From IMG/VR virus record IMGVR_UViG_3300031658_000028, positions 1-39,541 of that record: DNA of 39,541 nt; one strand, 5' to 3'. Position 1 is the stretch's first letter, and each line of letters opens with the position of its first letter. The DNA comes from a virus. Of this stretch, positions 7,220 to 12,971 are shown in pieces. The notes under the pieces are model-generated. The model saw only the letters and a list, made by a program, of their open reading frames with translations. It made no database searches and was not told the origin of the DNA. The position numbers were made by a program, and so were the translations under genes.

Positions 7220-7463
7220 GTTTGTCTGCCAACCATTCCATCCGCGAAAACTCTCCGTACCCACCAACCAACTCACCATCCACAAATACTTGCGGGAATG
7301 TTTTTGCGTTAGGTACTTTTTCTATCAGTTCATCCATTGAGAAGTCTACATCCAACATAAGTTTTTCGTAGTTGGCAGGCATAGCTTGAACTATCTGTTC
7401 TGCAATCTTCTCAGCTTGGTCACAGTATGTACATGCTGGTTTTGAATAAATTTGTATTATCAT
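7212..7463 (-). CDS. grx: Glutaredoxin
   Basis: 83 residues, thioredoxin fold. The active site is CTYC at 11-14, with the cis-proline loop TFPQVF at 55-60 and the glutathione-site GGYGEF at 67-72. It reduces disulfides, most likely for ribonucleotide reductase, and could also touch Fe-S metabolism alongside the phage iscU and iscA. The start at 7463 overlaps the stop of the upstream gene by four bases. Confidence 0.95.
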   Translation of the reverse strand: MIIQIYSKPACTYCDQAEKIAEQIVQAMPANYEKLMLDVDFSMDELIEKVPNAKTFPQVFVDGELVGGYGEFSRMEWLADKHD

Positions 7464-8572
7464 CTTATTATATCTATCGTGTTAATTGTTTCGGAATTCC
7501 AAACTTCCAGTTCCTTTCGTATCCGGCCGTCTGATACCAAGTTGTTATATCGTTTGATTGCCTTCTTGCGCCACCACTCAATAACATTGGGCAGTTCAAA
7601 CCTATCAAAGTTCTCCGCCTTTTCTAATTGTTGCGTCTTACCTAAAAGAACATCCTGTACATTAGAATATCCATACTCACTCATATAGAATCTTTTCTGC
7701 GTGGTAACATCGGTTGATTTCTTAATTACGTCACAGAATAGTTCATATGCCTTATCATCATGTACTTTCAAATTTTGTTTGAGTACCTGTATCATCTTAG
7801 TTTGATACTTTAGTTTTCTACTGGATGCACCTTTGTGAATAAGTACTTCACCACCGTTCTTTTCTTCAAACCAATCTCTCAGGTGAAAGTATATATCTTC
7901 ACCCATAGTCAACAAGAAGGATGACATGGTGTCACCTTTATATCTTAGGAAAGGTTTCATGCCATCATACATTGATGCACCTTTAATATTGCCGTATAAG
8001 GAAGTGGTCTCAAACAAACAAAACTCTGTCTTATACTTTCTGTTCAACATTCTCCGTACTTCATGCGAACAACAAATTGCAGCCAGTAACTTACCACCCA
8101 GATAATTAAATCCGAATGGTTGTACTGGAACTATATTAAACCCCATGATTGCCCGTTTATTAAAAATGGGCAAGTCGGGAACACCACCAAGAAAATCATT
8201 CCTTGGTTTGGAGTTTATTAGAGGTGAACCCAACTTGATAAATCCAACCGCCTTATTGGTAGTTGTTTCTTTGACCACAAGTTTCATTTCCTTGCCTGGC
8301 GCTTGGTCTGGTGAGAAAGATGCAGTCATCTCTAACATTTGATCAAACGATTGGTTAGGTACTTGTACGATTTCAAAGTTCATATCTTCTGGATGCATGT
8401 CCCATGATTGAAACATATCATCTTCTACACTCATACCAAAAAGAGGCGGTGGCAGTTTGTTCACCCTGTCTATCTTTCTGATACGAAAGTAATCATCTAT
8501 CCTCTCAAACTGAGAAAAATAATCGATGACTAGTTTACTAGCATAAATTGTATCTTCTTTACTGAGATGCAT
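7460..8572 (-). CDS. DUF4338/DruA-like protein, function unknown
   Basis: 370 residues from the ATG at 8572, preferred because AAGAG stands seven bases before it; earlier in-frame starts lie deep in the neighbour gene. The central part (about 95-215) has VGFIKLGSPL, then AIMGFNIVPV and LGGKLLAAIC, then FCLFETTSLYGNIKGASMYDG. This order of a substrate-exposing sheet, a helix after a conserved Leu-Ala, and a LFETT plus GxxY/M segment recalls DUF4338, the family of Druantia DruA. The resemblance is remote and judged by eye. The C-terminal third is basic and helical, suggesting nucleic-acid contact. It overlaps the upstream gene by 14 bases. Confidence 0.55.
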   Translation of the reverse strand: MHLSKEDTIYASKLVIDYFSQFERIDDYFRIRKIDRVNKLPPPLFGMSVEDDMFQSWDMHPEDMNFEIVQVPNQSFDQMLEMTASFSPDQAPGKEMKLVVKETTTNKAVGFIKLGSPLINSKPRNDFLGGVPDLPIFNKRAIMGFNIVPVQPFGFNYLGGKLLAAICCSHEVRRMLNRKYKTEFCLFETTSLYGNIKGASMYDGMKPFLRYKGDTMSSFLLTMGEDIYFHLRDWFEEKNGGEVLIHKGASSRKLKYQTKMIQVLKQNLKVHDDKAYELFCDVIKKSTDVTTQKRFYMSEYGYSNVQDVLLGKTQQLEKAENFDRFELPNVIEWWRKKAIKRYNNLVSDGRIRKELEVWNSETINTIDIIR

Positions 8573-9119
8573 AGTTAGACTCTTGGTCATTGAACCACGA
8601 TGGTATTTGTCTGGATGTCCACTTTGCAAATCCTTTCTTTTCCTTGATGTAATATTCTCGGTAAGCATTGACTGTGATAGATTGTTTGCAATTGTCTGGC
8701 ATGCATTGTGGTGGGTCAGTAAAAATACCTGTTGGGATATTGACGGGAGGCGTTGACAAGAAGTTCCGCAACTTATAATCTGTCATGTGTACTCTGCCAT
8801 ATCGATGCGTGTATTCATCACACAGAGAAACGAACAGTTCGTACATGTACTGATACTGCACTTTGTTTTTGCGAACCCATATAGCAGATGGGTGATTGAC
8901 ATGTGAGGCCTTGTACAGGACACCTTCGCGGTCTGACTCAGACAGTCTCCACCGTTGGATGCGTCTACCACTAGAGGCGTCAATGTAGTGGTCGCCATCG
9001 AGCATTCTGTGCGCGGTTGATAGTAGTTGCGCGTACTCGATGACCATCTTTACTACATGTTTATCGCAGTGATATGTCGCAGATTCGGCCGGTTGTCTGT
9101 GTAGATAAAATATGTTCAT
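8559..9119 (-). CDS. Conserved phage protein rich in His/Cys motifs (186 aa)
   Basis: 186 residues. The N-terminal MNIFYLHRQP followed by YHCDKHVVKM, then SHVNHPSAIWVRKN and the C-terminal YREYYIKEKKGFAKW are recognisable hallmarks of a family found in many phages but, as far as I recall, without an assigned biochemical function. The conserved His and Cys residues (CDKH, HVNH) could bind metal or act in catalysis. No membrane segment is present. It is the first gene behind the early-type promoter at 9156-9184 with a leader of about 35 bases, so it should be expressed early together with the genes below it. Confidence 0.75.
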   Translation of the reverse strand: MNIFYLHRQPAESATYHCDKHVVKMVIEYAQLLSTAHRMLDGDHYIDASSGRRIQRWRLSESDREGVLYKASHVNHPSAIWVRKNKVQYQYMYELFVSLCDEYTHRYGRVHMTDYKLRNFLSTPPVNIPTGIFTDPPQCMPDNCKQSITVNAYREYYIKEKKGFAKWTSRQIPSWFNDQESNYASQ

Positions 9120-9155
9120 AATAAAGAAAACTCCAATTAAACTCTATATGCACAC

Positions 9156-9184
9156 ATGATCTCATATTCCAGACCAGAAGTCAA
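9156..9184 (-). promoter_or_regulatory. Early-type sigma70 promoter after gp55
   Basis: Minus strand TTGACT (9184-9179), 17-base spacer ending in TGA (extended -10), then GATCAT (9161-9156). The -35 contains the TGA stop codon of the gp55 gene (9183-9181). It shares the string TTGACTTCTG with the promoters at 689-717 and 9842-9870. Confidence 0.65.
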
Positions 9185-9807
9185 GACTTTTTTTCGTCTT
9201 TTACCTCTTCGGGATTGTCTGATAACTGGGGTATCTTTTCCTTGGCCAACTTGAGTGCCTCTTTATCATCTAGATATAGGGGGCGTCTTTTAGGCATCTT
9301 CTTATCTTGGTCAGCGTACTGCGCCTTGTGTTTCTCGGCATCATCTATCTGTTTCTTCATGTACTCAACAAAATCAGCTGACCCAGACTGTGCGCCTTCG
9401 GAATCCAACATACCTTGTAGGTCAAGGTTTTGAATATACTTGTACTTAGTGTCAAGTTGTTTCTTTTCCTTCTGGATACGTCTTAGGAAGGCGTAGTAGG
9501 TAATCTGTGTGAAGTAAGCAAAGGGGTTCTTGGACTTGTCATGGTCAAAGTTATCAATGTAGGTTATACAATTTTCTATTCCATCAAGAATCATCTCCTC
9601 TCTGAAAGTATAATTCACAAAGTTACTCTTATAAGCCAAGTGATTGGCAATCTTAACCATACACTCACCGATGTACTCACCAACACGAGGTTTTGGGTCT
9701 CCCCTATCCAGTGCAGCTAATCGATTAATCCTATACTCAGTCATCGCAACAAGGAAATCCTTATTGTTGACGTAGTGCCTGCTTGGTGTTTTTGTTTTCT
9801 TAGCCAT
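9181..9807 (-). CDS. 55: Late-transcription sigma factor gp55
   Basis: Product of 208 residues from the ATG at 9807. HYVNNKDFL near the N-terminus and the stretch EEMILDGIENC, then KNPFAYFTQITYYAFLRRI match the region-2-like core of T4 gp55, which directs host RNA polymerase to TATAAATA late promoters. The tail is charged and may contact the sliding clamp pathway. Start choice: ATGs at 9843 and 9831 are in frame, but 9843 lies inside the -10 hexamer of the promoter at 9842-9870 and 9831 would have almost no leader. 9807 has AAGAAGAAG in front and gives a T4-like length ahead of YVNNK. The exact late consensus upstream of several structural genes fits with this factor. Confidence 0.93.
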   Translation of the reverse strand: MAKKTKTPSRHYVNNKDFLVAMTEYRINRLAALDRGDPKPRVGEYIGECMVKIANHLAYKSNFVNYTFREEMILDGIENCITYIDNFDHDKSKNPFAYFTQITYYAFLRRIQKEKKQLDTKYKYIQNLDLQGMLDSEGAQSGSADFVEYMKKQIDDAEKHKAQYADQDKKMPKRRPLYLDDKEALKLAKEKIPQLSDNPEEVKDEKKS

Positions 9808-9841
9808 AGTCTTCTTCTTAGTTACTGTCATTATGTTACCC

Positions 9842-9870
9842 ATTATATAGTATTGTTACCCAGAAGTCAA
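9842..9870 (-). promoter_or_regulatory. Strong early-type sigma70 promoter for gp55
   Basis: Minus strand TTGACT (9870-9865), 17-base spacer, perfect TATAAT (9847-9842). It shares TTGACTTCTG with two other sites. Transcription should begin near 9835. It stands back to back with the plus-strand promoter at 9906-9934, with 35 AT-rich bases between the two -35 boxes. Confidence 0.85.
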
Positions 9871-9905
9871 GCCCTTATTTATTTTAATTTAATTGCAAAT
9901 AGTTC

Positions 9906-9934
9906 TTGACAACTGCCTGGGGATGATGTATAAT
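9906..9934 (+). promoter_or_regulatory. Perfect consensus sigma70 promoter facing against the gene array
   Basis: TTGACA (9906-9911), exactly 17 bases, TATAAT (9929-9934) on the plus strand. Every annotated gene for kilobases on either side is on the minus strand, so this promoter would make an RNA antisense to the 3' end of the gene at 9971-10408. A 76-codon plus ORF with an AGGGA in front begins at 9955, but its composition looks like an antisense shadow. Confidence 0.75.
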
Positions 9935-9970
9935 ACCTTGTCGTTTAAGGGAAGATGGCAGTAGCTGCTG

Positions 9971-10408
9971 CTAGTGAAGCACACGTTTCCTTCTGCCGAC
10001 AATCTCTTCAACCATTTCTTTCAGTGTCTCCTCATCATATTCCGCACTATCAAGATAATCGTCAATGGTTTCTTGATTTATTACGTCATCGTCTTCTTCC
10101 GACATCTCACCTTCAATGTCTTCAAAGTATGTTTCCTTTAGTTCTTCAAATCCCTTTGCGAAATATTCACTCAGCGGCGCAATAGATAATACATTACTTT
10201 TATTTATTTCAAATGCGGTGGCGCTTGTAAATGACATCCAAGGTCTAATAGAATAGGCCTCTTGAGTTTTATTCACAGGGATTCGCATTACCTCCATTGG
10301 GTAATGAACCATATACTTACCTTCCGAGTCTAATTGAATAGACTCTTCAACATCAGCTACAATCTGTAGTCCACTTTCAAAACAGATTATCTTTGGTGAA
10401 TGATTCAT
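9971..10408 (-). CDS. Possible Sm-like (Hfq-fold) RNA-binding protein
   Basis: 145 residues. The first about 95 residues are beta-rich: SGLQIVADVEES, then YMVHYPMEVMRI, SIRPWMSFTSA and NKSNVLSIAPLSEYF. This spacing of a short strand, a bent sheet with a pro-aromatic PW, and a final Ser-Val-Leu strand resembles Sm1/Sm2 patterns, and an Sm-like fold has been described for a protein of putative cyanophage origin. The last 45 residues are strongly acidic (GEMSEEDDD) and end in basic GRRKR. It sits between gp55 and UvsW, whose stop it overlaps by four bases. The family assignment is an inference by eye; the gene itself is secure from length, overlap and composition. Confidence 0.72.
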   Translation of the reverse strand: MNHSPKIICFESGLQIVADVEESIQLDSEGKYMVHYPMEVMRIPVNKTQEAYSIRPWMSFTSATAFEINKSNVLSIAPLSEYFAKGFEELKETYFEDIEGEMSEEDDDVINQETIDDYLDSAEYDEETLKEMVEEIVGRRKRVLH

Positions 10409-11883
10409 ATCTTTGAGTTTACCTTAACTATCTTATAATCGAAAGATTCTTCGTTGTACATCTTAACTCTTTCAAGAAGGTGATTCAACGTGTAATTCTT
10501 TTTATCCTTCCAAGAGAGGTCATCTCCTACATCAAACAAGTTACACTTGTCTTTCTGTTCACTTTTTCTAAGTCCTCGACCAATAGACTGTAGGTTTCTG
10601 ATTCTACTTTTACTGGGTGAGGCAAACACAATATTGTTTAGACTCCTTATATTTATACCCGTAGAAAAAGTTCCGTAACTGGCAATGATTATGGTGTCGG
10701 TTGATTGTTCAGTGAGTTTCCTTATCTCTTCTCGTTGGGTAGTCTCAGTACCACCGAACACAAAGTACACTGGGCGTTTTGTCATCTTCTTTATCATTTC
10801 GTTTAAGACTGCACCGTGTTTTTCTACAAACTGATAGAGTAGAAGTGTGTTGCCTTTCTGTGCAACAGTCAGTTTAGTAATGATATCATTCCTACCAACG
10901 TGGCTTACCAAGAAATCCATTTCTTCTGGGTAGGTCATTTTGGATACTAGTTTCCTCTCGTTGTCTGCATACTCAATTAACATACAAACAATTTTTAGTT
11001 CGGCGAGTTCCTTCTTGTCCATCAGTGTCTTGGTATCAGTTACTTTGTACACCTTGCCAAAGACTCCCTCCAACACTAGTCTATGCGTCTTAGTACCATC
11101 CAGCGTACCAGTAGTACCTATCCTGAATCTGGCGTTAACGCATTTGTCCATAAGTGTCTGTAAAGATTTTGCCTTGAATAGGTGGGCCTCATCGCCATAG
11201 ACCACATCAAATTCTTCAAACCACGACTTCGGGTATTTGTAGATTGATTGCCATGTCGAGATAATTACATCAGCTTGGTTTGTCTTTTCTTTACCACCAT
11301 ATATCCTATGACAATACTTTTCTACACTGAAACCATTGTGTGTCGAGTAGTCGGCGAAATCACCGTACATCTGTTCTACTAAAGAGGTAGTAGGAACCAC
11401 TATAAGTTGTTTCCTCCCTAAGGCGTGATGGTATCGCGCCAGAGAGTATATTATGAGGGACTTTCCGCTAGCGGTGGGTGATAGAAGGAGACTCCTGCCA
11501 CGGTTGATTGCATCGTATATTGCGTTCTCTTGGTAGTCTCTTGCCTGTATTGGTTTTCCGTTGCCGTGTAGTTTTAATCTCTGGGTAAATTCTTTCACCT
11601 CTTCCATCGGCATGGATTCACCAATGTCATCCATCTCCAACACGACTTTGTATTCTAGTTGTTCTGCAAACTCCAACAGATAAGGTAACAGACCGACATA
11701 AAGTTCCATTGTCTGCATGTTGTACAAACGGATCTTCCCATCCCAGTGACGGTTTCTAAATGATGGCATGAACGAGGCTCCCGGCACCTCAAAGGTAAAG
11801 AAGTCAGAAATCTCCCTCGTTATGCCATCATCTGACGCAGCCACATTCATATGAACATGGTCTTTTTGTTTAATAAAAATCAT
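10405..11883 (-). CDS. uvsW: UvsW-type SF2 DNA/RNA helicase
   Basis: 492 residues, close to T4 UvsW. Residues 1-105 match the substrate-binding N-terminal domain (FRNRHWDGKIRLYN). The helicase core follows: Q-motif-like RDYQENAI at 116, Walker A SPTASGKS at 135-142, DEAH at 231-234, TTGTLD near 258 and QSIGRGLRK at 432-440 (motif VI). UvsW branch-migrates recombination intermediates and unwinds R-loops, shifting replication from origin-dependent to recombination-dependent mode. It lies directly after uvsY, as in T4. No clear ribosome site stands before the ATG at 11883, so coupling to uvsY (one base apart) is likely. Confidence 0.97.
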   Translation of the reverse strand: MIFIKQKDHVHMNVAASDDGITREISDFFTFEVPGASFMPSFRNRHWDGKIRLYNMQTMELYVGLLPYLLEFAEQLEYKVVLEMDDIGESMPMEEVKEFTQRLKLHGNGKPIQARDYQENAIYDAINRGRSLLLSPTASGKSLIIYSLARYHHALGRKQLIVVPTTSLVEQMYGDFADYSTHNGFSVEKYCHRIYGGKEKTNQADVIISTWQSIYKYPKSWFEEFDVVYGDEAHLFKAKSLQTLMDKCVNARFRIGTTGTLDGTKTHRLVLEGVFGKVYKVTDTKTLMDKKELAELKIVCMLIEYADNERKLVSKMTYPEEMDFLVSHVGRNDIITKLTVAQKGNTLLLYQFVEKHGAVLNEMIKKMTKRPVYFVFGGTETTQREEIRKLTEQSTDTIIIASYGTFSTGINIRSLNNIVFASPSKSRIRNLQSIGRGLRKSEQKDKCNLFDVGDDLSWKDKKNYTLNHLLERVKMYNEESFDYKIVKVNSKI

Positions 11884-11884
11884 A

Positions 11885-12328
11885 TTATATTAGGCCGGCC
11901 TGTGTCTTGTTCCATTCAACGGCATTTTTGATGTCCCATGTACGCGAGTTTAAACTACGCAACACTCTATCAAGAAAGTCCACAGTTGTTTCTAGGTAAT
12001 ACACTTTATCTTGTTGTTTGATTACGTCACCATCTCCATCTAGTACTGACCTCATATCTGATTTGAGAACAGAGTTTTTTCTCCACGGTTCCCAACCAAG
12101 TGAGTCGAGTTCCTCTCTAGATAATTCCCCACGGAAGTATTCTGACTTGACTCTCTCGAGCCGGTGTAAGTCGGCGGCCGCCTTTCTTACTTGTAGTTTG
12201 AAATTTGATAAGTGGGTAACATACTTAGAGTGTAGAAGCGGCGTCCTAGTAGACGAGCTTCCCAAGTCTAGTTCATCGATTTTTGCGTCTGCCGCCCACA
12301 TGTCTTGTAGTTCACTTAATGTTGCCAT
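11885..12328 (-). CDS. uvsY: Recombination mediator UvsY
   Basis: 147 residues, the usual length. The helical composition with SKYVTHLSNFKLQVR in the N-terminal half, LDSLGWEPWRKN in the middle and a C-terminal RSLNSRTWDIKNAVEW segment match UvsY of T4-like marine phages. UvsY loads the UvsX recombinase onto single-stranded DNA by displacing gp32. Its position between uvsW and the structural block starting with a tail-tube-like gene is the same as in related phages. Confidence 0.92.
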   Translation of the reverse strand: MATLSELQDMWAADAKIDELDLGSSSTRTPLLHSKYVTHLSNFKLQVRKAAADLHRLERVKSEYFRGELSREELDSLGWEPWRKNSVLKSDMRSVLDGDGDVIKQQDKVYYLETTVDFLDRVLRSLNSRTWDIKNAVEWNKTQAGLI

Positions 12329-12963: not shown

Positions 12964-12971
12964 TATTTATA
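12964..12971 (-). promoter_or_regulatory. T4-type late promoter (TATAAATA)
   Basis: Exact TATAAATA on the minus strand, followed by GG, 34 bases from the ATG at 12930 and just past the gp23 terminator. It should start late transcription of the tail-tube-like gene and continue into uvsY and uvsW. Confidence 0.8.

Follow-up and report, generated by a model that had tools for sequence, protein, structure and literature searches.

A probable antisense promoter conserved between the Sm-like gene and gp55 of T4-like phages

Several described systems resemble the locus analysed here. CfrI, an antisense RNA of cyanophage S-PM2, also belongs to a T4-like marine cyanophage and also overlaps gene ends, according to PMC2984593 and PMC5931967; PMC2984593 calls it the first report, the original being Millard et al. 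2010. The R-loop origins oriF and oriE of T4, which are regulated by UvsW, are similar in that a promoter lies near uvsW or uvsY in a T4-like phage. In T4 itself uvsW is a late gene, and its product is a helicase that unwinds origin R-loops (PMC3016281). The sigma70-type early and middle promoters of T4-like cyanophages such as S-PM2 and Syn9 share host-type hexamers with the present promoter, and ATAAATA is the late-promoter core of these T4-like marine phages (PMC2984593). The structure 3BY7 represents an Sm-like protein of putative cyanophage origin (PF16243, PHROG 471/527). No published description of an antisense promoter at the Sm-like/gp55 locus was found in a literature search that stopped short of the Syn9 start-site study (Doron et al. 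2016).

Gene neighbourhood and promoter sequence

The window (the whole stretch of 39,541 nucleotides analysed, IMG/VR record IMGVR_UViG_3300031658_000028) belongs to a T4-like marine phage, as judged from neighbouring proteins that match gp23, the tail tube, UvsY, UvsW and the late sigma factor gp55 in PHROG and Pfam. Among annotated isolates, Pelagibacter phage Mosig is closest by DNA, and cyanophages come next. Every gene of some size between about 935 and 28469 lies on the minus strand, in agreement with the preliminary description, which had placed all neighbours of the promoter on the other strand. The gene order is tail tube-uvsY-uvsW-Sm-like-[promoter]-gp55 and is identical in Syn9, P-SSM2, P-HM2 and others. 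The UvsY recombination mediator is encoded at 11885..12328 (-; PHROG 231, Pfam UvsY) and the UvsW helicase at 10405..11883 (-; PHROG 16, Pfam UvsW_N), the latter overlapping the start of the Sm-like gene (9971..10408, -). The late sigma factor gp55 occupies 9181..9843 (-; PHROG 234, E=5.5e-59). Close to gp55, the product of 7460-8668 (-) matches Pfam DruA (Druantia defence protein, E=4e-8) and PHROG 19197, whose function is unassigned, and that of 8559-9119 (-) is a pyrimidine-dimer DNA glycosylase-like protein (PF03013).

The late-promoter motif ATAAATA stands ahead of the tail tube-uvsY-uvsW-Sm-like operon at 12964..12970 (-). This motif is twofold enriched in the window (21 copies against 10.3 expected), with 18 of the 21 on the minus strand, and its copies lie mostly at minus-strand gene starts. 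A scan of the window revealed no sigma70-type site of at least 10/12 driving the operon, and no sense-strand intrinsic terminator was found there between the operon end and gp55. Behind gp23 there is a strong intrinsic terminator with an 11-bp stem and a T run (13016-12991, -).

On the plus strand TTGACA-N17-TATAAT spans 9906-9934, just as the preliminary description had it, with the -35 box at 9906..9911 and the -10 box at 9929..9934. Both hexamers are perfect (12/12) and their 17-bp spacing falls within the 16-18 bp allowed for sigma70-type promoters. No other 12/12 match spaced by 16-18 bp occurs in the whole window; when spacers of 15-19 bp are admitted, two perfect pairs occur against 0.05 expected from dinucleotide shuffles. 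The second TTGACA/TATAAT pair, at 8753-8779 (+), has a poor 15-bp spacer and lies within the minus-strand gene 8559-9119. From the promoter position the transcript is predicted to start at about 9940 and to run antisense to the gene at 9971-10408 and then to that at 10405-11883. The antisense relation to the 3' end of the Sm-like gene, as first proposed, applies to this transcript and not to the promoter itself, which lies outside both genes, in the gap that separates the Sm-like stop (9971) from gp55.

A divergent sigma70-type promoter of gp55, TTGACT-17-TATAAT (9842..9870, -; 11/12), sits 35 bp from the antisense promoter in the window. Its -10 box overlaps the ATG at 9843, so gp55 more likely starts at the internal ATG at 9831 or at that at about 9807, which has a good ribosome site. 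Among the relatives, a gp55-sense promoter of at least 10/12 is found in 103 of 123. In many cyanophage-like loci (L048, L051, L052 and others) the gp55 and antisense -35 boxes overlap as CTTGTCAAG, forming a compact bidirectional promoter.

Conservation among relatives

Loci of relatives were fetched by protein similarity to gp55, UvsW or the Sm-like protein only, blind to the promoter, and an antisense sigma70-type site was counted if it scored 10/12 or better and lay no more than 230 bp from gp55. Conservation of the promoter had been set beforehand as a test, and such a site is present in 121 of 123 unique loci, always antisense, although these related sequences are not independent events. 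Across the set gp55 identity to the window drops to about 50%. The count in dinucleotide shuffles was 6.7 +/- 2.5 of 123, and among equally sized windows elsewhere on the same strand it was 133 of 2888 (4.6%). In the two exceptions, L020 and L021, the promoter lies directly after the Sm-like gene (11/12 and 12/12, respectively), and a dehydrogenase-like gene is inserted between it and gp55. Metabolic-looking inserts at the Sm-like/promoter/gp55 boundary are found in L020 (3235-4032), L021 (3256-4038) and L027 (723-1445); by eye they are UDP-glucose dehydrogenase-like and SGNH-hydrolase-like.

Isolates that carry the antisense promoter include Syn9, P-SSM2, P-SSM4, P-HM2, S-SSM7, DSL-LC03, S-RSM4, Mosig, phiM12 and phiN3, and their hosts are Synechococcus, Prochlorococcus, Pelagibacter and Sinorhizobium. 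Of these, phiM12 and phiN3, which infect Sinorhizobium, belong to another genus; in the Methylophilales phage Melnitz the promoter is weaker and rearranged. In Syn9 (NC_008296) the homologous antisense 5' end is predicted at about 123698 on the minus strand. Among 84 distinct relatives with 17-bp spacing the -35 box is invariant in 83, and TA...T of the -10 box is invariant in the relatives. The hexamers are more conserved than the spacer: information per base reaches 1.98 bits at -35 and 1.54 bits at -10, whereas the spacer holds 0.47 (84 distinct 17-bp spacers). Drift everywhere but in the two hexamers is the pattern expected of selection on a promoter. As far as comparative sequence evidence goes, the backward promoter is very probably a real switch that makes an antisense RNA.

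The element is also encountered elsewhere. An exact pattern for its cyanophage version occurs in at least 120 stretches. Of 80 element loci examined, 55 have it in antisense ahead of gp55, whereas the stretches of the other 25 contain no gp55; in most of these 25 the element lies elsewhere, generally in sense, ahead of other genes. Syn9 has two copies, one at the homologous antisense site and the other amid a run of small genes. The sense copies ahead of other genes indicate that these phages use the element as a promoter class, and what is distinctive at the Sm-like/gp55 locus is its fixed antisense placement. The Syn9 start-site study reportedly describes an early regulatory element not known before, and this may be the same promoter class. 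An extra promoter copy with the dyad AAGG-tgtcg-CCTT lies at 140125 (+) of G001, the contig of L009, in L327; behind it come a tiny frame, ATG-GCT-GCT-GCT-AAG-TGA, then another promoter-like site and a gene, and the arrangement looks like a leader.

Start-site dyad, predicted RNA and Sm-like protein

The expected start, TG at 9939-9940, lies within a dyad, CCTT-gtcgttt-AAGG (9936..9950, +). In relatives this dyad is a short inverted repeat after the -10 box, centred on the conserved TG; it is weak in the window, poor in the window's sister clade and stronger in other relatives. Examples are CAGGA-atg-TCCTG in phiM12, AACGG-tgt-CCGTT in Mosig, AACTC-tgtca-GAGTT in S-SSM7 and CGCT-ctgt-AGCG in L028, and the consensus of the set is AACCCT-gta-AGGGTT. 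The two arms coevolve: an arm forms 2.94 Watson-Crick pairs with its own partner and 2.20 +/- 0.135 with swapped partners (0 of 5000 permutations), and the excess is smaller, indeed modest, when plain shuffles and Watson-Crick pairs are used. An RNA hairpin was considered and rejected: allowing wobble pairs brings no specific gain, the 5' arm precedes the expected start, and the excess in plain shuffles is modest. The first two of these points make a protein-bound operator the simplest reading, and the dyad is probably an operator that turns the promoter itself off.

The first part of the predicted antisense RNA is placed at 9940..10059 (+) from the position of the promoter. Its predicted structure is not unusual (z -0.60), and a search of 8500-11500 with Rfam 15 covariance models gave no match up to E=1. 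No conserved ORF downstream of the promoter and no conserved RNA sequence beyond about +15 were detected in relatives. A small protein from the plus-strand ORF 9955-10185 (76 aa) was rejected as the product, having no PHROG or Pfam match and being absent in relatives. A general intrinsic terminator giving a short RNA was likewise rejected. In the sister clade L006-L018 a hairpin AAGGATA/TATCCTT is followed by TTCTTTTT, making a good terminator of about -7 to -10 kcal/mol some 45 nt from the start; none exists in the window, and terminator-like structures occur in 31% of relatives against about 19-20% of controls. As neither an ORF nor a terminator is conserved downstream, a noncoding antisense RNA is the probable product. 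The suggestion of a regulatory or antisense RNA is consistent with this sequence evidence, regulation by that RNA being hypothetical. In phiM12 a 50-aa ORF (L354 3613-3765, -) precedes the Sm-like gene after the antisense promoter, and the first product there would therefore not be antisense; the same small ORF is frame-broken in phiN3 (L360).

The Sm-like protein has 145 aa, with an acidic, helical C-terminal part. Alone it gives a weak match to 3BY7 (E=0.86) and a sub-threshold match to DUF6561. When 13 relatives are combined into a profile, 3BY7 is matched at E=2.3e-6, which reaches the Sm/LSm family by sequence; the profile also matches designed TIP60 chains, aligned over the same N-terminal sequence. 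Pfam PF16243 (Sm_like) is found in 6 of the 13 aligned relatives. The AlphaFold model has a mean pLDDT of 75.7, mostly 80-93 over residues 1-90, and displays the five-stranded bent beta barrel of Sm/LSm-like proteins. It superposes on 3BY7 with TM 0.80-0.86 and rmsd 1.6-2.6 A, and the next matches are spliceosomal Sm/LSm proteins. The fold check that had been set for the suspected Sm-like identity thus came out in its favour, and by model and profile the 145-aa product has the Sm fold. In Syn9, P-SSM2, P-HM2 and others the gene is usually annotated 'methylamine utilization'.

Possible functions and comparison with known systems

The reading we favour, tentatively and at somewhat less than an even chance, is that an early, host-sigma70 antisense promoter under selection opposes the late uvsY-uvsW-Sm operon at the gp55 boundary by means of a noncoding RNA. 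A host-type promoter kept by selection between the late operon (tail tube-uvsY-uvsW-Sm-like) and gp55 would direct transcription against the 3' end of the Sm-like gene, yielding a noncoding RNA from about 9940. Judged by promoter motifs, it would be active early, with unmodified host polymerase. The RNA would act in cis, by convergent transcription and antisense pairing, so that read-through and early expression of the Sm-like/uvsW end may be kept low until gp55-dependent transcription takes over; the dyad, as a probable operator, would shut the promoter itself off. Early silencing of the operon would make sense because T4 UvsW is late and removes origin R-loops. The opposed operon has a late motif, no sigma70-type site of 10/12 or better and no intrinsic terminator before gp55, so that levels of UvsW and the Sm-like protein would be held down by an early antisense promoter. 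Against this mechanism stand the intervening ORF of phiM12, the weak, rearranged version of Melnitz and the unremarkable RNA structure. Its target is ambiguous, because the promoter stays with the Sm-like gene in L020 and L021 but with gp55 in L027. A bolder form appears unlikely, namely an ancient antisense switch common to kyanoviruses and the Sinorhizobium T4-like phages, starting in the coevolving dyad, whose noncoding RNA would time the change from early to late transcription and, through uvsW, from origin- to recombination-dependent replication, possibly with the phage's own Sm-like protein.

That the promoter is instead a transcription-primed replication origin is improbable. The RNA would then stay as an R-loop and prime the leading strand, as at T4 oriF or the early-promoter-dependent oriE, and only the promoter would need to be conserved. 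Conservation of the promoter without conserved RNA sequence is what such an origin predicts; a promoter is present at the site, as in T4-type R-loop origins, and adjoins uvsW and uvsY; and the site falls in a broad low of detrended GC skew in four of five genomes. Those lows are 20-45 kb wide, however, and Mosig does not fit the skew pattern; the window has no A+T-rich unwinding element, since +1 to +60 is 52% GC against 41% window-wide. The first 60 bases in relatives are no more A+T-rich than their surroundings (33.1 vs 33.7% GC).

A short RNA of about 45-60 nt, ending at a terminator that overlaps the Sm-like stop codon and acting in trans or bound by the Sm-like protein on other messages, has only a small chance of being the product. 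The terminator of the sister clade and the Sm-like protein encoded next door agree with it; the small excess of terminators over controls, their lack in the window, the loss of conserved sequence beyond about +15 and the empty Rfam search do not. An equally small chance is given to a collision terminator or insulator, in which the opposing promoter stops late-operon polymerases before gp55 and the RNA itself is inert. The operon end without an intrinsic terminator and the fixed boundary position, retained where genes are inserted, would suit it, but the dyad would be left unexplained, and we know of no cost when the late operon reads through its own gp55. Unselected antisense initiation from symmetric -35 sequences in a divergent promoter region, to which the overlapping boxes of many cyanophages (CTTGTCAAG) might point, is very improbable given that the window's two promoters lie apart and are both kept, that the antisense site is the commoner (121 vs 103 of 123 loci) and that the -10 box and start site are separately conserved.

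To our knowledge, these abundant marine viruses lack MotA and AsiA. As comparative evidence goes, the retention of an antisense promoter at one site in phages that infect Synechococcus, Prochlorococcus, Pelagibacter and Sinorhizobium is unusually strong in suggesting that such an RNA matters, and its position between the helicase that in T4 silences origins and the late sigma factor makes it a testable handle on how marine phages time their programme. The transcript would also be an obvious RNA to consider as a partner of the orphan phage Sm-like protein (structure 3BY7), although binding is hypothetical. With 3BY7 the window protein shares the Sm barrel, by profile and fold, at 18-23% identity, and it adds an acidic helical tail of about 55 residues. 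CfrI is placed at psbA and a homing-endonuclease gene, whereas the window promoter is at Sm-like/gp55 and is also found in phages of non-photosynthetic hosts. Unlike T4 oriF and oriE, the window has a consensus sigma70 promoter rather than a MotA promoter and is without an A+T-rich unwinding element, and an origin role is hypothetical. Finally, the same element with its downstream box occurs in sense upstream of other genes, and the copy at the Sm-like/gp55 locus differs from those early and middle promoters in being antisense at a fixed locus and in carrying a start-site dyad.
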